DNA of 7,321 nt from Opitutaceae bacterium (lineage in GTDB: Bacteria; Verrucomicrobiota; Verrucomicrobiae; Opitutales; Opitutaceae), in the NCBI GenBank assembly GCA_031266495.1, contig JAISAX010000490.1:1-7321 (forward strand). Reading direction: 5' to 3'. Each line of letters opens with the position of its first letter. Position 1 is the stretch's first letter. Of the stretch, positions 1-7,321 are shown piece after piece. The notes under the pieces were generated by a model. It did not search any database and was not told the origin of the DNA. It saw nothing but the letters and a program-made list of their open reading frames with translations. Position numbers and translations under genes: made by a program.

Positions 1-12
1 CCCCCCCCCCCC
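1..12. repeat. C homopolymer at left window edge
   Basis: The window opens with an uninterrupted run of 12 C, followed by GC-rich sequence up to the end of the first minus-strand gene at position 24. No gene or regulatory function is visible in it. A homopolymer at the very edge may mark where an assembly stopped. Confidence 0.8.
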
Positions 13-23
13 GGCCGCATGCG

Positions 24-383
24 TCAGCCATCCCCGCTCCGGCGGTAGCGGACCAGCACGGCCAGCGACCCGCGCCGCGACACAAACGCCTGCGGCCGCT
101 CGCCGTTTTCCTCCGCGTGGTAGCAGAGCTGGAGCAGGTTTCCGCGCCGCCGCATGATGGCGCGCAGCCGCCGGCCGGCTCCGATGCCCTGTTCGCAGAC
201 GATATCGATCTCGTGCCAGCCTGCGCTGCTGTCGCCGGAGATCTCGATCCGGCCCGCGTCGCGCTCGCCACCTTCGCGAGTGATCGTATAGCGATCCGCC
301 TCGATCGTCATGAGCAGGCCCGGCGGAGGCACCGCCTGTCCGCCGAATTCCGCCCCCCGAGGTTCCCATATGCCGTCGATCAT
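24..383 (-). CDS. small TIGR03067-like domain protein
   Basis: A 119-residue protein when read from the ATG at 383. It starts MIDGIWEPRGAEFGGQ, continues with LLMTIEADRYTI, and ends with a segment LLQLCYHAEENGERPQAF and a strand LAVLVRYRR. This order (DGxW, a G-G-x-x-P segment, a TIE-x-x-RYT strand, an L-x-x-CY-x-x-x strand followed by ERP-x-x-F, and a final strand) matches my memory of the TIGR03067 domain of Planctomycetota and Verrucomicrobiota, a small beta-rich domain of unknown function. No signal peptide or membrane segment is visible, so it is probably cytoplasmic. An in-frame TTG at 419 would add 12 residues and overlap the regulator stop as TTGA, suggesting translational coupling. 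I prefer the ATG because the domain begins right there, although neither start has a clear ribosome binding site. It lies just downstream of the sigma-54 activator gene on the same strand, so the two are probably co-transcribed. Function unknown. Confidence 0.72.
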   Translation of the reverse strand: MIDGIWEPRGAEFGGQAVPPPGLLMTIEADRYTITREGGERDAGRIEISGDSSAGWHEIDIVCEQGIGAGRRLRAIMRRRGNLLQLCYHAEENGERPQAFVSRRGSLAVLVRYRRSGDG

Positions 384-415
384 CGTGTGAAAAGAAGCGG
401 CGGGACCGGCCGGCT

Positions 416-2080
416 TCAAGCGCCGGATGCCACCGCCTGCGCATCCTCCGCCTCCAGCCGGGCCTTCACCGTGCGGCGATCCTGATCGAGGCGGCGGGCG
501 GTTTCCTCCACCGTGATCGCCTGCGCGTGGACATGGCGCGTATAGCGACGCAACACCTCCTCTGCCGTCAATTTTCCCGGCCCGAGCAACGCATTCCAGT
601 CAGCCTCCCCGCGCCCGCCCGCTTCCCTCCCCTGCCCCGCTCCGGACCACGGCGCCCCCTCCGCCGGCAAGGCCGGGCGATACTCCCCGCGCACGAGCAG
701 GTTGCGCATGCACTGCTCCAGTTCGCGAAAATTGCCCGGCCACCCATAATGCGGCCCGAGATTTTTTTCGATCCAGGCCACCGCCTCGCGTCCGAATTTT
801 TCGCCCTCTTCCTCGCCGAGCAGACGCCGCGCCACATAGCCGGTGAGCAACGGCAGCTCCGTCCCCGACGCGTCGAGCTGTTCGCGCAACGACGGCGTGC
901 GCACCACATCGGAACAGAGCCGGTAATAAAAATCCTCGCGAAACCGCCCCGCGCGAATCTCCGCCGACAGGTCGCGGTTGGTCGCCGCGATGATTTTCCC
1001 CGAAAACCGCCGCGTCTCCGTGTCGCCCAGCCGCTGGAACGTCCGCGACTGCAACACCCGCAGCAGCTTCACCTGTATCCCCGTTTCCACTTCGCCGATC
1101 TCGTCGAGGAACACCGAACCCGTCGCGGAACACACTTCCATCCAGCCCGCCCGGTCCGCCAGCGCGCCGGTAAACGCCCCCCGCCGATGCCCGAACAGCT
1201 CCGACTCGATCAGCGTCGGCGAGAGCGCCGCGAGGTTGAGCGGAAAAAACGCCGTCGAAAAATCATCCGTGAACCCGCCACGCCGCACGTCGTAGGGCAG
1301 ATACCGCGACAACGCGATGGCGCGCGCCACCAGCTCCTTGCCCGTGCCCGACTGACCCGTTACCAGCGTGGCGAAATCCCCGATACGCGCATACAACGTC
1401 CGCCGGTAGCGCGGCAGGTCGTGCGTGAAAATCGATTGCCAGATCGCCGCCCGCAACCGCGCCATCGGGGCCGAGCCGCCCGCCAGCGAACGGAAAATAT
1501 GATGAAACGCCCGCCGGATCTGGAATGCGCACGCGAACAGATGCTCCACCGGCTGCCCCTCCAGCAATCGCAACCCGGGCAACGCCAGCAACCGCTCCAC
1601 ATCCGCCCGGAAGGCCTGAAAGAACTCCACGCGCACCGGTTTTGCCCCCGCGTCCGCCGTCCCTGCCTTGCCCGCCATCCCCGCCGCCCCCGGTTCCGCC
1701 GCCTTTCCGTGCGCGGCTTCGGACGCGCGGATCACGCGGTCGAACCGCTGCATGTACGTATGGTAAAGCCAGAGACCGGCCAGTTCGCCGTAAGCCGTCG
1801 CCTCCTCCCGGGCCACCCGGCCATCGCGCGGCCAGGCGTCCCGCGTCCTTTCGATCACCGCCTCCATCCGCTCCGTCAGACGCATATGATTGGGGTGGCT
1901 CGTTTCCGAGGGCGGCAACGTATTCCAGGCGGCCCCCTCCCCCACGAAACCCTCGCCCAGCGCGTCGCGCTCCCGGGCGATCCGCTCCGGCAAAAACGGA
2001 TTGGTCGCATTGATCCGCCGCACCGCTTCGGCAAACGGACGGTCTTCTTCCAGAAACAATCGCGGCAACTTCATCTTCAT
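416..2080 (-). CDS. sigma-54-dependent transcriptional activator (enhancer-binding protein)
   Basis: A 554-residue activator that remodels sigma-54 RNA polymerase by ATP hydrolysis. The AAA+ core carries Walker A GQSGTGK (about 242-248; most relatives have GESGTGK), the sigma-54 contact loop GAFTGA (301-306), Walker B VFLDEIGE (D326, E327), a sensor segment IIAATNRDL, FREDFYYRL, and WPGNFRELEQ (from about 447). A Fis-like helix-turn-helix, ITVEETARRLDQDRRTVKARL, lies at about 522-542. The first 220 or so residues match no response-receiver, GAF or PAS domain that I recognise. They contain an Ala/Gly-rich linker (around GAAGMAGKAG), so the input signal is unknown. Starts are uncertain: TTG 2116, ATG 2098, ATG 2080 and ATG 2074 are all in frame. 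I chose 2080, near the MKLPRLFLEED block, because it leaves the dyad at 2101-2115 outside the gene. The gene is divergent from the VIT/vWA gene, which has a sigma-54-like promoter, making that cassette its likely target. Confidence 0.93.
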   Translation of the reverse strand: MKMKLPRLFLEEDRPFAEAVRRINATNPFLPERIARERDALGEGFVGEGAAWNTLPPSETSHPNHMRLTERMEAVIERTRDAWPRDGRVAREEATAYGELAGLWLYHTYMQRFDRVIRASEAAHGKAAEPGAAGMAGKAGTADAGAKPVRVEFFQAFRADVERLLALPGLRLLEGQPVEHLFACAFQIRRAFHHIFRSLAGGSAPMARLRAAIWQSIFTHDLPRYRRTLYARIGDFATLVTGQSGTGKELVARAIALSRYLPYDVRRGGFTDDFSTAFFPLNLAALSPTLIESELFGHRRGAFTGALADRAGWMEVCSATGSVFLDEIGEVETGIQVKLLRVLQSRTFQRLGDTETRRFSGKIIAATNRDLSAEIRAGRFREDFYYRLCSDVVRTPSLREQLDASGTELPLLTGYVARRLLGEEEGEKFGREAVAWIEKNLGPHYGWPGNFRELEQCMRNLLVRGEYRPALPAEGAPWSGAGQGREAGGRGEADWNALLGPGKLTAEEVLRRYTRHVHAQAITVEETARRLDQDRRTVKARLEAEDAQAVASGA

Positions 2081-2100
2081 ACATAAAACGCCATCCATGC

Positions 2101-2115
2101 TGACATTTTTTGTCA
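2101..2115. promoter_or_regulatory. candidate activator-binding dyad TGACA-N5-TGTCA
   Basis: The sequence TGACATTTTTTGTCA is a perfect inverted repeat with 5-bp arms and a 5-bp T-rich spacer. Its centre lies about 110 bp upstream of the start site predicted from the -24/-12 element at 2192-2207. That is the usual distance for an enhancer site of a sigma-54 activator. It also sits immediately upstream of the preferred activator start, so it could serve autoregulation. Only one copy is visible, whereas many such activators use two or more. Assignment to this activator is inference. Confidence 0.4.
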
Positions 2116-2191
2116 AAACATGAATCCGAAATAATTACCGGAATACCACAACACCTTGTAATAAAATACCTAACCCAACATGCCCAAAACC

Positions 2192-2207
2192 TGGCACACA
2201 TCCAGCA
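2192..2207 (+). promoter_or_regulatory. candidate sigma-54 (-24/-12) promoter
   Basis: TGGCACACATCCAGCA matches the sigma-54 consensus TGGCAC-N5-TTGCA completely in the -24 half. In the -12 half it keeps the essential GC and the following A but has CA instead of TT. The GG and GC are separated by exactly 10 bases, as the factor requires. The predicted start of transcription is near 2218, only about 5 bases before the ATG at 2223, so the message would be nearly leaderless. A sigma-54 activator gene lies divergently next to it, which strengthens the case. The short leader weakens it. Confidence 0.5.
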
Positions 2208-2222
2208 AAGGCATCAGGCGTC

Positions 2223-4334
2223 ATGAAAAACCAAGACCACATCCAACGTCCATCCACAGTCCGCCGCGTCCTTGCCTTCATCGGATTCTCCATTGTTGCC
2301 GCCCTGCCCTGGGCCCTCATGGCAACCGCCCGCGGCGCCGGCACGCTCACGCCTGTCGGCTCGCCGCAGGCCCCGATCCGGATCCGGTCACATCAAGTCG
2401 ATGTCACCATCAACAACGGATTCGCCCGCACCGAAGTCACGCAGATCTTTTTCAACCCCAACTCCGTTGACCTTGAGGCCGTTTACGCGTTTCCCGTCCC
2501 GAAAAGCGCCAGCCTCTCCGAAGTGACGATCCACGCCGGCGAAAAAATCCTCCGCGGCGAAGTCCTCCCGAAGACCGAGGCCCAGGCCGTTTACGAAGAC
2601 GAAAAAACAAAAGGCAACGACGCGGGCCTCGCCTCGAAAAACACCTGCCAGACCTACGAATTCCGCGTCACCCCCGTCCGCGCCAATGCCGAAACGCAGC
2701 TCACATTCGTCTATTACCAACCGCTCGAAATCGACACCGGCGTCGGTCGCTACCACTATCCGCTCGAGGACGGCGGCACCGACGACGCCGCCCGCAATTT
2801 CTGGCAACCCGCCAACAGCCAGGTCGAAGGCGGCGGCCCCGGCCGGCTCGTATTCAACATCGAGATCAAATCCGCCTGGCCGATCGACGACGTGCGCGTG
2901 CCCGGCTTTGAAAACGCCGCCAGCATCCGGAAACTGGATACCGGCCACTACACGCTCTCGCTCGACCGCCCCGACGCGAAGCTCGAACGCGATTTTGTTC
3001 TCTACTACCGCCTCGCCGACAACCTCCCTGGCCGCGTCGAAGTCATCCCCTACCGCGCCTCGAAGGACAAACCCGGCGCCTTCATGATGGTCGTCACGCC
3101 CGGCATCGACCTGCAACCCATCACGCGCGGCGCCGACTACACGTATGTGCTCGACGTATCCGGCTCCATGCACGGCAAGATCACCACCCTCGCCAACGGC
3201 GTTGCCCGCGCCCTCGGCCAGATGCGCGAGACCGACCGCTTCCGCATCGTCACCTTCAACAACTCCGGCCGCGAAGTCCTCGGTTGGACGCCCGCCACCC
3301 GCGCCAACGTCGAGCGCGGCGTCGAACTCGTCAAAAGCCTCGCCCCCAACGGCGGCACCAACATCTACGCCGGCCTCCAGCTCGCCCTGCGCGATCTCGA
3401 CGCCGACCGCGCCAGCAGCATCGTCCTCGTCACCGACGGCGTCGCCAACCAAGGCGTCGTCGATCCGAAGGCGTTTCACGCGCTCCTGAAAAAATACGAT
3501 ATCCGTTTCTTCGGATTCCTCATGGGCAACAACTCCAACTGGCCGCTCATGCGGACGATGGCCGACGCCACCGGCGGTTTTTACGCGGGTGTATCCAACG
3601 ACGATGACATCGTCGGCCAGATTCTCCTCGCCAAATCGAAAATCGCCTTCGAGTCCCTGCACGACGCCTCCTTCAAGTTCAAGGGCGCCCGCGTCACCGA
3701 AACCACCGGCGACTACCCGCAAAAAATCTACCGCGGACAGCAGCTTGTCATATTTGGCCGATACGACAGCGCCGGCGAGGCCACCGTCCAGCTCAAGGCC
3801 AAGCTCACCGGCGAGGACAAGACCTACACCACAACGTTCAACTTCCCCGAGACCGACACCGACAATCCCGAGATCGAACGCCTCTGGGCCCTCGCGCAGA
3901 TCGAGCAACTCGAGCAACTCGAATCCATCGGCCAACTCCCGCCCGCCGAGAGCAAGGAAGCGATCACGCATCTCGGAGTGGAGTATCAGCTCGTCACCGA
4001 CCACACCGCGATGGTCGTCCTCGACGACGCCACCTTCGCCGGACGCGGCATCGATCGCAAAAACCGCGACCGCATCGCCACCGAACGCACCGCGCAAAGC
4101 GCCCGCGCGCAGCAGCCCGTCAAAAACTACCAGGTCGATGCGCAACAACCCACGTATTCGCAACCCGCCCCCCACGTGAGCCACCCCTACAGCGGCGGCG
4201 GCGGAGGCGGCGGAGCGTTCGGATCGACCGATGCGGCGTTGATCGTGCTCTTCACCGCACTGGCTGGCATCACGTCTGCGTTTTGCAGAAAACCCGCGAT
4301 CCGGAAACCACACACAAGCGCGGAGAATTCGTGA
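2223..4334 (+). CDS. secreted VIT and von Willebrand factor A domain protein with GlyGly-CTERM-like tail
   Basis: A 703-residue exported protein. A signal peptide (RR at 14-15, hydrophobic 16-33) probably ends near the ATA motif at 34-36. A VIT domain follows (about 48-165, with VTINNGFARTEVTQIFFN and VYAFPVP at 87-93). A vWA domain (about 305-475) has a complete metal site: DVSGS 311-315, T379 in GGTNIY, and D405 in TDG. A C-terminal conserved segment (about 547-605) includes LGVEYQLVTDHTAMVVLD, as in other VIT/vWA proteins. The tail has seven glycines (658-664), a hydrophobic helix (about 670-687) and basic residues (R689, K690, R694, K695), as expected of a rhombosortase substrate. The domain order resembles inter-alpha-trypsin inhibitor heavy chains and bacterial sortase-target VIT proteins, suggesting adhesion or metal-dependent ligand binding at the surface. 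The ATG at 2223 is needed to keep the signal peptide. Only weak SD-like bases (AGGCG, too close) precede it. It heads the plus-strand cluster. Confidence 0.92.
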   Translation: MKNQDHIQRPSTVRRVLAFIGFSIVAALPWALMATARGAGTLTPVGSPQAPIRIRSHQVDVTINNGFARTEVTQIFFNPNSVDLEAVYAFPVPKSASLSEVTIHAGEKILRGEVLPKTEAQAVYEDEKTKGNDAGLASKNTCQTYEFRVTPVRANAETQLTFVYYQPLEIDTGVGRYHYPLEDGGTDDAARNFWQPANSQVEGGGPGRLVFNIEIKSAWPIDDVRVPGFENAASIRKLDTGHYTLSLDRPDAKLERDFVLYYRLADNLPGRVEVIPYRASKDKPGAFMMVVTPGIDLQPITRGADYTYVLDVSGSMHGKITTLANGVARALGQMRETDRFRIVTFNNSGREVLGWTPATRANVERGVELVKSLAPNGGTNIYAGLQLALRDLDADRASSIVLVTDGVANQGVVDPKAFHALLKKYDIRFFGFLMGNNSNWPLMRTMADATGGFYAGVSNDDDIVGQILLAKSKIAFESLHDASFKFKGARVTETTGDYPQKIYRGQQLVIFGRYDSAGEATVQLKAKLTGEDKTYTTTFNFPETDTDNPEIERLWALAQIEQLEQLESIGQLPPAESKEAITHLGVEYQLVTDHTAMVVLDDATFAGRGIDRKNRDRIATERTAQSARAQQPVKNYQVDAQQPTYSQPAPHVSHPYSGGGGGGGAFGSTDAALIVLFTALAGITSAFCRKPAIRKPHTSAENS
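4322..4325 (+). promoter_or_regulatory. Shine-Dalgarno GGAG deciding a GTG start
   Basis: GGAG ends 5 bases before the GTG at 4331, inside the last codons of the VIT/vWA gene. It is the clearest ribosome binding site in the window. It supports the GTG start of the lipoprotein over the upstream TTG at 4283 and the downstream ATG at 4358. Confidence 0.65.
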
Positions 4335-5209
4335 AAACCATCAAACGATCGCCACCCATGAACCACCTCATCCCTCCCCTGATTTCCATGCTGGTCCTGG
4401 CCCTCCTTCCGGGCTGCCTCATGATTCACCCGACCAAAAGCACGCAAGCGAGCAGCGTGGTGCAATTCCTGTACCCCTCGCAGCAGCCGGTCGTATTGCC
4501 ATCCGTGCCGACGCTGAACCTGCCGCTGCGCGTAGGCATCGCATTCGCGCCGCCGGGTACGGGATGCGGCCCGCAACGGCTTTCGGAAACGGAAAAGGCA
4601 CGCCTGCTTCGCAAGACAAGCGCAGACTTCAGGGCGCTTCCCTATGTCTCGGGCATCGAAATCATCCCGACCACGTACCTGCGCCCGGGCGGAAGTTTCG
4701 ACAACCTCGACCAACTGCGCTCGATGCTCGCCATCGACGTGATCGTATTGCTGGCCTACGACCAGACCCAGGTCACCACGGACACGCCGTACACGTTGAG
4801 CTACTGGACCATCGTCGGCGCCTACATGGTGCCCGCGCAGAAAAACGACACGGCCACCCTGATGGAAGCCGTGGTGTACGACATCGCCAGCCGGCGACTG
4901 CTGTTTCGCGCAAGCGGCACCAGCTTGGTGAAACACCACTCGACCCTGGTGGGCATGGAGAAAAATCTGATGGAAGATTCGCGACAGAGTTTCGCGCAAG
5001 CCGCCGAGGAATTGACGGTCAACCTGAAAACGGAACTCAACGATTTCAAGGTGCGCATCAAGGAGACGCCGGAGGAAATCCGTGTGACCACCAGACCGGG
5101 TTACTCTGGCCTCGGCGCGCTCGACGGCAAGGACGTGGCGTTGATGATCTTCTTCGTCTTCCTCGCCAAGGCCGCGCACCTCGGCAGACGCGCCACGTGC
5201 CAGCAGTAA
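4331..5209 (+). CDS. rhombotarget-type lipoprotein with C-terminal GlyGly-CTERM-like helix
   Basis: A 292-residue predicted lipoprotein. The GTG start overlaps the preceding stop as GTGA, has a GGAG site upstream, and gives a signal peptide with K2, K5 and R6. The ATG at 4358 would give an n-region with no Lys or Arg. The lipobox LPGC places the lipidated cysteine at C29. The mature part contains LRVGIAFAPPGTG, LRKTSADFRALPYVSGIEIIP and LDQLRSMLAIDVIVLLAYDQ, suggesting an alpha/beta domain, perhaps like CsgG or LpoB; the fold is a guess. The tail runs GYSGLGALDGKDVAL (257-271), continues as a hydrophobic helix to about 284 and ends with RR at 286-287. It aligns without gaps to the tail of the upstream VIT/vWA protein (8 of 18 identical). 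This matches the family I recall as 'rhombotarget lipoprotein', encoded beside rhombosortases. After C-terminal cleavage it would remain held by its N-terminal lipid. The partner is probably the VIT/vWA protein; the molecular role is unknown. Confidence 0.85.
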   Translation: MKTIKRSPPMNHLIPPLISMLVLALLPGCLMIHPTKSTQASSVVQFLYPSQQPVVLPSVPTLNLPLRVGIAFAPPGTGCGPQRLSETEKARLLRKTSADFRALPYVSGIEIIPTTYLRPGGSFDNLDQLRSMLAIDVIVLLAYDQTQVTTDTPYTLSYWTIVGAYMVPAQKNDTATLMEAVVYDIASRRLLFRASGTSLVKHHSTLVGMEKNLMEDSRQSFAQAAEELTVNLKTELNDFKVRIKETPEEIRVTTRPGYSGLGALDGKDVALMIFFVFLAKAAHLGRRATCQQ

Positions 5210-5223
5210 ACCATAACGCCGGA

Positions 5224-5245
5224 GCGGCGGCATTCCTGCCGCTGC
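5224..5245 (+). repeat. hairpin, 9-bp stem with TTCC loop
   Basis: GCGGCGGCA (5224-5232) pairs with TGCCGCTGC (5237-5245) around a TTCC loop, with one G-U pair in RNA. It begins 15 bases after the lipoprotein stop, so it could stabilise the 3' end of the upstream message. No U-run follows, so it is not a typical intrinsic terminator. Confidence 0.6.
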
Positions 5246-5247
5246 GA

Positions 5248-5266
5248 CGAGGCGCAACGCGCCTCG
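5248..5266 (+). repeat. hairpin, perfect 8-bp stem with AAC loop
   Basis: CGAGGCGC (5248-5255) pairs perfectly with GCGCCTCG (5259-5266) around AAC. It follows directly on the previous hairpin, and the two form a paired unit as in REP-type elements. No T-tract follows. Confidence 0.6.
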
Positions 5267-5281
5267 CCCCTTGCCTCTCCG

Positions 5282-5313
5282 CCACTCCACTCCACTCCAC
5301 TCCACTCCACTCC
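5282..5313 (+). repeat. CCACT pentanucleotide tandem repeat, six copies
   Basis: Six perfect head-to-tail copies of CCACT occupy 5282-5311, followed by CC. An isolated related CCACTCC occurs shortly after, near 5320-5326. Five-base units in noncoding DNA can change copy number by slippage. Here that would alter the spacing between the flanking hairpin pairs but no reading frame. Confidence 0.85.
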
Positions 5314-5345
5314 GCCTCGCCACTCCGGCCCTTCGCCTTTCAGCC

Positions 5346-5366
5346 CGGCGACGCTTCGCGTCGTCG
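5346..5366 (+). repeat. hairpin, 9-bp stem with TTC loop
   Basis: Bases 5346-5354 (CGGCGACGC) pair with 5358-5366 (GCGTCGTCG) around TTC, with one G-U pair in RNA. It is the third of four hairpins in the intergenic element and lies downstream of the tandem array. Confidence 0.6.
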
Positions 5367-5368
5367 CA

Positions 5369-5384
5369 GCGGTCTGGAGACCGC
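5369..5384 (+). repeat. hairpin, perfect 7-bp stem GCGGTCT/AGACCGC
   Basis: GCGGTCTGGAGACCGC is a near-complete palindrome with a GG centre. With only two unpaired bases the RNA loop would be tight, so it may work as a DNA palindrome or cruciform, or open one or two pairs in RNA. It is the fourth hairpin of the element. Confidence 0.6.
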
Positions 5385-5451
5385 CGCTCCCGCCGCTCCG
5401 GTTTTCCGCCGGTGTAACACATCCGCAACTTCAGTAATTCCACCGCCAGCC

Positions 5452-6126
5452 ATGTCCCGATTTCGCGTATTTGTTCCGAGCCTCCCGCTCGTCACACTCG
5501 CCCTTGCCGCCGCGGCCCTGCTGGTCGCGGTGCTGCCTCCGGGTGTTGCCACCCTTGCCCAGTTCGATCGCGCCAGCTTCCTGGCGCAGGGCGCCATCTG
5601 GCCGCTCTACACCTCGCACCTTGTCCACTTCGGAAAAAACCATCTGGCCTGGGATGTCTTTGCCCTCCTCGTCCTCGGCACGATGGCCGAACGCTGGTCG
5701 CGCTTCGCCACGGTCCTCACGCTCACGCTGGCCGCGCCGCTCATCGTCCTGACCGTCTGGATCGCCCAACCGCAATTCATCACCTACCGCGGCCTCTCGG
5801 GCCTGGACGCCGCCCTCTTTACGCTTGTCGCGACCCGGATCCTCCGCGACGGACTCGCCTGCCGTCCCCGCCACCCGTTTTCTGTCGTCCTCGGGACGCT
5901 CGCCCTCGCCGGACTGGTTGCCAAATGCGGCTACGAAATTTTTTCGGGCGCCACGCTATTTGTTGCCAATAACAACACCCCCTCGCCTGCCGACACCGCC
6001 CATGCCTTTGTCCCGGTGCCGCTGGCGCACCTTGTTGGAGGTACCGTCGGCGCACTGACCGGAATTTTTTCCCGCCGCGAACACCCGCTCACGTTTCCCG
6101 AAAACCCGCATTCAACGCCCCGGTAA
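5452..6126 (+). CDS. rrtA: rhombosortase (rhomboid-family intramembrane serine protease)
   Basis: A 224-residue membrane protein, small for a rhomboid and the usual size for a rhombosortase. It cleaves GlyGly-CTERM tails of exported proteins within or near the membrane. Hydrophobic stretches lie at about 11-28, 65-80, 85-105, 116-130, 140-156 and 190-205. Visible rhomboid landmarks are HLVHFGKNHLAWD (H64, with D68 at the position where GlpG has Asn in HxxxN), the nucleophile motif YRGLSGLD (S116 in GLSG), and the catalytic histidine in AHLVGG (H193). The loop KCGYEIFSGATLFVANNN before the last helix resembles the segment preceding the final His in rhombosortases. The ATG at 5452 gives MSRFRVFVPSLPL, a short basic N-terminus before helix 1; no clear SD is seen. 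It lies 242 bases downstream of two proteins with matching C-terminal tails, its likely substrates. The symbol follows the rhombosortase family name and is less certain than the family call. Confidence 0.87.
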   Translation: MSRFRVFVPSLPLVTLALAAAALLVAVLPPGVATLAQFDRASFLAQGAIWPLYTSHLVHFGKNHLAWDVFALLVLGTMAERWSRFATVLTLTLAAPLIVLTVWIAQPQFITYRGLSGLDAALFTLVATRILRDGLACRPRHPFSVVLGTLALAGLVAKCGYEIFSGATLFVANNNTPSPADTAHAFVPVPLAHLVGGTVGALTGIFSRREHPLTFPENPHSTPR

Positions 6127-6157
6127 CTCCTGCGACCAGGTTATCCGTAATCCATAT

Positions 6158-6173
6158 TGGCAATCGCGCCGCC
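6158..6173 (+). promoter_or_regulatory. weak sigma-54-like element upstream of the ketoacyl synthase
   Basis: TGGCAATCGCGCCGCC has TGGCA in the -24 half and GC in the -12 half, with the required 10-base GG to GC spacing. The rest of the -12 half (CC before, C after) does not match the consensus. The predicted start near 6184 would leave a 24-base leader before the ATG at 6208. In GC-rich DNA such partial matches arise by chance, so this is only a candidate for sharing the control of the VIT/vWA gene. Confidence 0.22.
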
Positions 6174-6207
6174 ACCGCCAAAAATCAACCGTCACCTTCG
6201 TCCCTTT

Positions 6208-7287
6208 ATGTCCATCCAGCCAACCTCCATCGGCAGCTCCAGCGCCAGGCAACCCGTCGCCATTTCCCGACCGCTTCGACTTGCGGGCAGCGGATGTTAT
6301 TTGCCGCGCCGCTGCGTCGGGAACACCGAACTTGAAACACGCCTCGGCGTATCCGCTGGCTGGATCGGGGAAAAAACCGGCATCCATCACCGCCACTATG
6401 CAGACCCCGCCACCGAATCATCGCCCGTCATGGCAGCCCATGCGATTCGTGCCGCGCTGGGCGATTCCGGCGACGAGTCGCCGACCGACCTTCTCGTGTG
6501 CGCCTCGGCGATCGGCTCCCGCCCCCTGCCCGCCACCTCTTGCCTCGTGCAACGCGAACTCGGTCCCGCATGGGCGGGCGTCCCCTGCATGGATGTCAAC
6601 TGCACCTGCCTCGGCTTTCTCTGTGCGCTCGACATGGTCGCCTCGCATCTGGCCTGCGGTCGTTTTCGCCGCGTGGTGATTGTCTGCTCGGAAATCGCCT
6701 CCCTCGGCATGAACTGGGCGCAACCCGGATCAGCCACGCTGTTTGGCGATGCCGCCGTTGCATTTGTTGTCGAAACCGCCGGCGATTTCCCGCCCCGGTC
6801 CGCCTTCCTCCGGACCGATCCGCCCGCCCTGCTCCATTGCCGGATGGCAACCTTCAGCGAAGGCGCCGATTTCTGCACCGTGCGCGGCGGAGGCCTCGAA
6901 CTCCCGGGCTGGCAGTATCAGGAATCCCGGCACGCGGACTATCTCTTCCACATGGACGGCCTCCGCATACACGAACTCGCCAGCCGCCGGCTGCCGCCAT
7001 TTGTGCGCGAATTTCTGGAAGAAGCCGAAACCACGCTCGACGAGATCGACCTTGTCATCCCCCACCAGGCCGGCCTGCTGCCGCTGCGCATCATGCAACG
7101 CAAACTCGGCATCCCGTCCGGACGTTTTGTCATCACACTCGCCCGCCACGGCAACGTCATCTCCGCCTCGATACCTCTGGCGCTGCACCTCTCCCGGCAG
7201 GAAGGGCGGGCGCACCCCGGCCAGCGCGTGCTCCTGCTCGGCACTGCCGCCGGGCTCACCCTGGGCGCCGCCCTCCTGCGACTATGA
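6208..7287 (+). CDS. beta-ketoacyl-ACP synthase III (FabH-like, thiolase fold)
   Basis: A 359-residue condensing enzyme of the KAS III family, cytoplasmic, which joins an acyl-CoA starter to malonyl-ACP or a related acyl donor. Landmarks are LAGSGCYLPRRCVGN near the N-terminus, the nucleophile in DVNCTCLGF (C134), SATLFGDAAVAFVVE, the histidine in VIPHQAG (H286) and the asparagine in RHGNVISAS (N316). The His-Asn spacing of 30 equals that of E. coli FabH (244/274). The Cys-His distance (152) is about 20 longer than in E. coli, so there is an insertion. Differences from housekeeping FabH include PHQAG for PHQAN and GTAAGLTLGAALL in place of the final GGGFTWG loop. It is therefore more likely a specialised paralogue (secondary lipid, polyketide or starter-unit synthesis) than the essential fabH. 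ATG 6208 is preferred over TTG 6157, which adds a proline-rich, unconserved extension. Its stop overlaps the next start as ATGA, suggesting an operon to the right. A link to the rhombosortase cassette is not evident. Confidence 0.9.
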   Translation: MSIQPTSIGSSSARQPVAISRPLRLAGSGCYLPRRCVGNTELETRLGVSAGWIGEKTGIHHRHYADPATESSPVMAAHAIRAALGDSGDESPTDLLVCASAIGSRPLPATSCLVQRELGPAWAGVPCMDVNCTCLGFLCALDMVASHLACGRFRRVVIVCSEIASLGMNWAQPGSATLFGDAAVAFVVETAGDFPPRSAFLRTDPPALLHCRMATFSEGADFCTVRGGGLELPGWQYQESRHADYLFHMDGLRIHELASRRLPPFVREFLEEAETTLDEIDLVIPHQAGLLPLRIMQRKLGIPSGRFVITLARHGNVISASIPLALHLSRQEGRAHPGQRVLLLGTAAGLTLGAALLRL

Positions 7288-7321
7288 ACCACTCCGCGCC
7301 CTCCCCTCCCCCTCCCCCCCC
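7284..7321 (+). CDS. 5' end of a further gene, cut by window end
   Basis: ATG at 7284-7286 overlaps the ketoacyl synthase stop TGA (7285-7287) as ATGA, the classic arrangement for translational coupling. The visible residues are MNHSAPSPPPPP, a proline-rich start encoded by a C-rich stretch, and the frame is open to the edge. Only 12 full codons are available, so no product can be named. If real, it is likely to act in the same pathway as the condensing enzyme, for example an acyl carrier protein, reductase or acyltransferase; this is a guess from operon position only. Confidence 0.45.
   Translation, partial: MNHSAPSPPPPP
7314..7321. repeat. C homopolymer at right window edge
   Basis: The last eight bases are all C, preceded by C-rich sequence with scattered T from about 7299. 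Together with the 12-C run at the left edge, this means both ends of the window are C tracts. The tract may be true proline codons of the truncated gene or may be an assembly limit. Confidence 0.75.

Follow-up and report, generated by a model that had tools for sequence, protein, structure and literature searches.

A rhombosortase-like locus in an Opitutaceae bacterium with two candidate substrates and a C-terminal tail that has changed owner

Gene content of the window

We examined a DNA stretch of 7,321 nucleotides (nt) from an Opitutaceae bacterium (positions 1 to 7,321, forward strand, of contig JAISAX010000490.1, assembly GCA_031266495.1), here referred to as the window, which carries a cassette of three genes encoding a VIT/vWA protein, a rhombotarget lipoprotein and a rhombosortase-like protease, with a sigma-54-dependent transcription activator in divergent orientation. 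An initial annotation, made from the sequence alone, had described the cassette as a self-contained set in which both proteins are candidate substrates and share a tail motif with a D-x-A-L core. The cassette proved genuine and of a type already described, and the basic picture given there was already established, as the pairing of GlyGly-CTERM proteins with rhombosortases, which the annotation had itself cited as established, was published in 2011 (Haft and Varghese, PMC3237569). The predicted open reading frames (ORFs) at 2223-4334 (VIT/vWA) and 5452-6126 (protease) and the lipoprotein ORF ending at 5209 were confirmed, and so was the build of both tails, in which a Gly stretch leads into a hydrophobic helix with basic residues at the end. 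The features of the cassette and its control region are the following.

416..2116, reverse strand: sigma-54-dependent transcription activator (PF00158, 156 bits), divergent from the cassette
2101..2115, no strand: inverted repeat TGACA-N5-TGTCA, a possible enhancer-binding site, touching the longest reading of the activator ORF
2192..2207, forward strand: promoter-like element of the sigma-54 (-24/-12) type, TGGCACACATCCAGCA, 31 nt 5' of the VIT start codon
2223..4334, forward strand: VIT/vWA protein of 703 residues, candidate substrate (PF08487, 99.3 bits; vWA domains)
4194..4331, forward strand: VIT/vWA tail read from the sequence, with 7 Gly, a hydrophobic stretch and a basic end, unlike the VIT tail of strain TAV5
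4211..5112, forward strand: segment absent from TAV5 (BLASTN), comprising the present VIT tail and the lipoprotein body
4331..5209, forward strand: rhombotarget lipoprotein with lipobox LLPGC, candidate substrate (TIGR04179, 283.9 bits)
5108..5206, forward strand: tail of the lipoprotein, a homologue of the VIT tail in TAV5 (25/33 identical to the tail of P0171)
5452..6126, forward strand: rhombosortase-like protease of a VIT-associated clade, with Ser116 (GLSG) and His193 (TIGR03902, PF01694, trees and model)

The VIT/vWA protein is 93% identical to P0171 of the sister strain TAV5 (locus L184). It scored 209.9 bits against TIGR03788, below the cut-off of 551.65, and in place of the LPXTG tail beside a sortase it has a Gly-run tail with a rhomboid downstream. 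We call the tails in the window GG-type, a label that does not make them members of the GlyGly-CTERM family TIGR03501.

The lipoprotein exceeds the curated cut-off (150 bits) of NCBIfam TIGR04179, "rhombotarget lipoprotein", and has the N-terminal lipobox and the GLG...basic C-terminal tail of that family. Its start is either GTG 4331 or ATG 4358; as the GTG overlaps the VIT stop codon as GTGA, the two proteins may be translated together. No sequence relatives were found in the PDB, and the AlphaFold2 model (predicted local distance difference test, pLDDT, 82) showed a weak likeness to HpaA, GNA1162, PelC and CsgG (E 1.7e-5 to 1e-4), with low template modelling (TM) scores by query of 0.24-0.35.

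The protease scored 28.2 bits against Pfam Rhomboid PF01694 (cut-off 22.6). An alignment of 22 relatives, counting the window, shows no variation at Ser116 or His193, and the model of the protease has six long helices with a mean pLDDT of 87.5. As is typical of rhombosortases, it adjoins a protein with a Gly stretch, a helix and a basic tail.

A tail exchanged between orthologous loci

In BLASTN comparison with TAV5, window positions 1-4210 (90.4% identity) and 5113-5216 (88.5% DNA identity) are contiguous in that strain, so that 4211-5112 is an exact indel; the alignment of the two sequences ends at 6053. Both breakpoints lie inside the Gly stretches that open the tails, and no lipoprotein body was found in TAV5. 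Because the two flanking stretches are contiguous in TAV5, the tail of the window lipoprotein is like that of the TAV5 VIT protein, which was its closest match among the tails compared (score 118). In the two homologue lists that the tail counts below cover (the best 120 of 2292 and the best 120 of 2387 matches), the window lipoprotein tail scored 118, 92 and 84 with VIT tails, versus 53 with the best lipoprotein tail. The tail has changed owner: that of the window lipoprotein is the homologue of the TAV5 VIT/vWA tail. Among the literature matches listed, no description of such a tail exchange was found.

As to the direction of exchange, the sequences somewhat favour a deletion in TAV5, because the lipoprotein of L003, at the orthologous site, is preceded by what looks like the remains of a VIT leader, a short ORF that starts like one, and such a remnant points to an ancestral arrangement with both genes. 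The opposite event would be an insertion, in the window's line, of a piece made of a VIT tail and a lipoprotein body into a TAV5-like VIT-rhombosortase locus, by which the lipoprotein gained the resident tail. We rate it a little short of even; the VIT-like tail of the lipoprotein favours it, as does the lack of the lipoprotein in 41 of the 42 family genomes with VIT, while L003 and an imperfect 10-nt repeat (8/10) at both ends of the indel count against it.

Adjacency, co-occurrence and locus states

The expectation of a rhombosortase-type protease beside tail-bearing neighbours held widely. Of the 42 family genomes with VIT, all but G243 and G232 had their VIT locus inspected; the gene directly downstream was a rhombosortase at 34 of these 40 loci, 2 had none there and 4 lay at edges. 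Among 101 distinct lipoprotein genes, 83 have a rhombosortase no more than 1.6 kb away, 17 have none and 1 is at an edge. In a wider sample of the phylum, a rhombosortase was found downstream at 20 of 23 newly fetched VIT loci, one of the other three being at an edge; three weak VIT matches without a locus (G551, G503 and G491, 29-31% identity) were left out of this sample.

Presence and absence lists of the three genes were compared by eye. Of 150 family genomes, 83 encode a rhombosortase that passes the cut-off. The lipoprotein is over its own cut-off in 33 of the 150, 32 of which also have a rhombosortase over the cut-off (74.0 bits in the remaining one, G138), and VIT (E<=1e-40) is present in 29, of which 25 have one. 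The four VIT exceptions are a distant, PEP-tailed relative (G018), two fragments (G031 and G075) and a VIT gene at a contig end (G104). The pattern that the initial annotation had named as one that would refute its proposal, regular occurrence of homologues of both proteins in genomes without a rhombosortase, was thus not seen. Rhombosortase counts at E<=0.001 were not used, as all 14 control genomes match at that level (none over the cut-off), and the number of TIGR03501 proteins per genome proved uninformative, since that model misses VIT tails and 1 of the 14 control genomes passes its cut-off.

Across 252 family genomes, VIT (E<=1e-100) was found in 42 and the lipoprotein in 49, and the two occur together only in G001, versus 8.2 genomes expected (P 6e-4, uncorrected for kinship). 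The orthologous locus, marked by the divergent activator, exists in three states: VIT followed by rhombosortase (TAV5, G007, G051 and G056), VIT, lipoprotein and rhombosortase (the window), and lipoprotein followed by rhombosortase (L003). In G001, VIT stands at the activator, and a lipoprotein-rhombosortase pair is on a separate contig. No lipoprotein remnants were found by tblastn between VIT and rhombosortase in G056, G007 and G051; a search of the G051 genome gave a lone weak match, in which lipoprotein residues 210-282 pair with the last part of the VIT ORF.

Several related loci carry variant forms of the two genes. The GG-type tail is internal to the VIT ORF in L162, L163, L164, L166 and L168, and probably in L165 and L205; beyond the tail, the ORF runs on through another hydrophobic stretch resembling a signal peptide and an additional domain of ~130 residues, which looks like a fused gene or a polyprotein with an internal sorting tail. 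The VIT ORF of L167 stops at the tail. VIT proteins with a GPVGP-like tail adjoin a more distant rhomboid (39-70 bits) in L082, from a Desulfuromonadales genome, and in L225, L226, L227, L229 and L230, from the Verrucomicrobiota sample. Two distant VIT relatives (L171 and L172, 26-28% identity) end in PEP-CTERM-like tails of the exosortase type. The lipoprotein ORF of L003 (1971-3620) continues in frame after its tail into a second lipobox-like stretch (SSGC) and another domain, a fusion across the tail. Tandem rhombotarget lipoprotein copies, the upstream one without a tail, are present in L033 and L080, and the lipoprotein of L204 (G154) is broken by in-frame stops.

The VIT-associated protease clade

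In a first tree of 126 rhombosortase rows, 33 of the 34 VIT-adjacent rows fell into one clade with a Shimodaira-Hasegawa-like approximate likelihood ratio test (SH-aLRT) value of 99. A second tree of 57 rows, from which L082, L181 and three long-branch rows had been dropped and in which the rows outside the clade were thinned to 22, agreed on this clade. It holds only three lipoprotein-adjacent rows, namely the window (sister of TAV5), L001 and L003, and these stand in two separate places within it. A group of the 32 VIT-adjacent rows without these three was rejected by the approximately unbiased (AU) test (p-AU 2e-51). Joining the three in one clade of the protease tree, as a single origin of their loci would require, was likewise rejected (p-AU 1e-7), by a test that assumes a group named beforehand and was applied to a group chosen after the first tree was known. 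In the tree of lipoprotein bodies, one clade (SH-aLRT 97) comprises 14 rows, 13 of them distinct: the window, P0002, L001, L003 and ten more. As this tree keeps the window, L001 and L003 together, vertical descent with losses is possible for their lipoprotein loci.

Tandem pairs of rhombosortase-like genes occur in L116, L134 and L135, and the short flanking sequences examined contain neither a lipoprotein nor a VIT relative.

Tail residues and what the protease may read

The initial annotation had aligned the two window tails without gaps over 18 residues with 8 identities. This alignment stands, and the likeness it was taken to express is not above chance: the pair scores 30 (BLOSUM62; 10/33 identical), and 2000 random lipoprotein/VIT pairings drawn from 102 lipoprotein and 118 VIT tails gave a median of 12, a 95th percentile of 32 and a 99th percentile of 43, in an approximate comparison, with the null tails cut by length and those of the window by eye. 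Tail similarity was rejected as evidence of shared recognition, since the score lies within this null.

It had also been suggested that this protease subtype may recognize its substrates by the D-x-A-L core common to both tails and that G-x5-D-[AV]-A-L would prove enriched. Both window tails do have D at position 6, counted from the last Gly of the stretch, and A-L at 8-9; of the 115 VIT tails that could be parsed among 120, 59 have D6 and 60 have either D or E. The strict motif, with the window excluded, was found in just 5 of 118 VIT tails and in none of 102 lipoprotein tails, and as a general signal it was discarded. Many VIT tails next to proteases of this clade have no acid at this position, and six acid-6 lipoproteins, all with E6, adjoin rhombosortases of other clades (L027, L040, L043, L065, L030 and L073). 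As acid-6 also adjoins other rhombosortases and the full motif is rare, neither is an exclusive signal, and we consider it very improbable that the full core is what the protease recognizes.

A narrower form of the idea, in which an acidic versus an aromatic residue at position 6 helps the VIT-type protease separate its own substrates from those of the ordinary lipoprotein-type protease, fared better, and we hold it as a tentative and rather doubtful proposal. Position 6 is acidic in 12 of the 13 distinct tails of the window's lipoprotein clade (Asp in the window, Glu in L003 and in 10 of 11 tails counted together), versus none of the 101 other parsed lipoprotein tails among the 120 closest homologues, 82 of which have Phe6 (7 were unparsed). 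The residue is D or E in each of the three lipoproteins whose neighbour is known to be a VIT-type protease. The tie between tail residue and protease subtype holds to this extent; on the other side, the acid-6 lipoproteins are one lineage, with perhaps one evolutionary change behind them, the protease neighbour is known for only three of its members (window, L001 and L003, all of the VIT type), acid is not universal in VIT tails, and acid-6 is also present beside other protease clades. In loci from many phyla it was called in 12 of 95 lipoprotein tails not belonging to the VIT-type group, or 11 of 95 after correction of the misparsed L069; six of these are the ones with a rhombosortase of another clade next to them.

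The sigma-54-type control region

The activator is 91% identical in TAV5 and 59-65% identical in L185, L206, L207, L208, L209 and L003, and its orientation is divergent in each. The TGACA-N5-TGTCA palindrome is whole in the window, L206 and L003, with near-copies or half-sites in the other 5 of the 8 loci. A TGGCAY...GCW element lies exactly 31 nt 5' of the ATG in 8/8 related loci, the pattern having been written after inspection of these eight. A divergent activator was detected at 26 of 36 family VIT loci and 17 of 21 further VIT loci (43/57 together), a -24/-12-like element at 23/36 and 9/21 (32/57 together), and both at 22/36 and 7/21. Three loci with short upstream sequence (L158, L170 and L174) were skipped in this count, and L171 and L172, with their PEP-type tails, had been excluded beforehand. 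Neither activator nor element was found at any of 63 control lipoprotein loci, which were drawn from many phyla and searched for the activator with the window's own sequence. These features suggest that the locus is under sigma-54 regulation. Among the literature matches listed, no description of sigma-54 control of rhombosortase loci was found.

PrsR is reportedly the regulator of PEP-CTERM genes under RpoN. These genes (PMC9850573) resemble the present locus in the sigma-54 control of a sorted protein and differ in their exosortase-type tail.

Interpretation

We consider it probable that the window holds a conserved Verrucomicrobiota sorting locus, with a sigma-54 activator, a VIT/vWA protein, a dedicated rhombosortase and, between the latter two, a lipoprotein, in which the tails are cut and serve as exchangeable modules between the VIT/vWA protein and the lipoprotein. 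The sigma-54 activator would drive expression of the VIT/vWA surface protein and its dedicated rhombosortase, and in the window organism the rhombotarget lipoprotein gene sits between the two. Both proteins would be exported and halted in the inner membrane by their C-terminal helix, and the neighbouring protease would then cut each near the Gly stretch. As the lipoprotein would also carry an N-terminal lipid, the cut may be required before its departure to the outer membrane, freeing it from the inner one.

A number of observations weigh against this account. Among the loci fetched, the three-gene order stands only in the window, and the earlier suggestion of a dedicated local set is not supported as a fixed arrangement. 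Neither window protein matches TIGR03501 at E<=1, nor does the TAV5 VIT tail. The protease reaches 81.5 bits against TIGR03902, 2.5 under the annotation cut-off of 84, for which reason we call it rhombosortase-like; this cut-off is a naming threshold rather than a biological trait, and the TAV5 orthologue, 80-81% identical, passes it with 86.0 bits. The adjacency profile was built from relatives of the window's own protease, and the six weakest neighbours in the wider sample (39-63 bits) may be ordinary rhomboids. No divergent activator was detected at 10/36 family and 4/21 further VIT loci, and the promoter pattern is missing at 13/36 and 12/21. VIT tails outside Opitutaceae are mostly without acid-6 in a by-eye reading, and the acid-6 lipoprotein clade is a single lineage.

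Some of these points would also suit plain transmembrane anchors, the protease having other substrates: the tails are unrecognized by TIGR03501 and their cleavage is itself deduced. Several points argue against such anchors, which we regard as highly unlikely: both substrate families lie beside rhombosortases and co-occur with them, NCBI names the lipoprotein family a rhombotarget, and the protease clade is specific. A bolder extension of the sorting reading, that rhombosortases form subfamilies with partly separate substrate codes (acid-6 for the VIT type, aromatic for the lipoprotein type) and that substrates switch protease by gaining a new tail through recombination at the Gly-run codons, with the window and TAV5 as the example, is speculative and on present evidence unlikely.

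The tail exchange is a natural test of what such proteases recognize. The loci provide a natural matched pair: on one side, a single protease clade adjoins one kind of tail on two unrelated bodies; on the other, a sister lineage of the same lipoprotein has a different tail and a different protease clade. Position 6 and the Gly-run junction thereby become open to direct test, and the probable sigma-54 control would be a way of inducing the system.

Relation to known systems

What is new here is the tail exchange with TAV5, the VIT-associated protease clade with its locus states, the position-6 pattern and the sigma-54 association. The initial annotation had mentioned neither the tail exchange nor the divergent activator and its promoter-like site. 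In Haft and Varghese (PMC3237569), vault-like VIT/vWA proteins with GlyGly, PEP-CTERM or LPXTG tails are described (Fig. 3C legend), an adjacent target and protease are listed for Opitutus terrae (Table 3), and in Comamonas testosteroni targets follow one another less than five genes away from a rhombosortase. The window shares with these systems the tripartite tail, the rhomboid subfamily and the position of the target beside the protease in dedicated systems. It differs in having two target families in one cassette, a tail exchange between orthologous loci, the VIT-type protease clade, the sigma-54-type control region and tails unmatched by TIGR03501.

A 2017 paper (PMC5300114) describes TIGR04179 as a protein of full length whose end is a variant GlyGly-CTERM. 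The window lipoprotein agrees with this family in its full-length match over the cut-off and in the protease next door; it departs from the family in its VIT-type tail and in the protease itself, which belongs to the VIT-associated clade and not to the usual kind. The marine proteobacterial sortase target TIGR03788 has the same VIT and vWA architecture, whereas in the window a GG-type tail and a rhombosortase replace LPXTG and sortase. LPXTG relatives of the VIT/vWA family with a sortase in the adjacent gene are also mentioned in PMC3237569 and, going by the family name, probably correspond to TIGR03788.

In Vibrio cholerae, engineered swaps of GlyGly-CTERM tails on RssP retain recognition when joined at the di-glycine (section 5 of PMC13393428). 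The interchangeability of tails is common to both cases, and the joint of the window/TAV5 indel falls at the exchange point used in that laboratory work; the swaps there were engineered in one genome, whereas the window and TAV5 show a natural exchange between sister-strain loci.

Flanking features

Two further features lie beside the cassette genes.

5217..5442, no strand: intergenic stretch with pieces of dispersed repeats, absent at the same site in TAV5
6208-7287: FabH-like synthase adjoining the cassette

The repeat pieces at 5217-5372 have copies elsewhere in the TAV5 stretch and none at the equivalent TAV5 site, and 5218-5259 together with 5352-5393 form a 42-nt imperfect inverted repeat. 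For the FabH-like synthase, the six relatives searched gave only homologues of <=37% identity, located elsewhere. C-rich runs stand at both contig ends (1-12 and 7300-7321) and are probably assembly break points.

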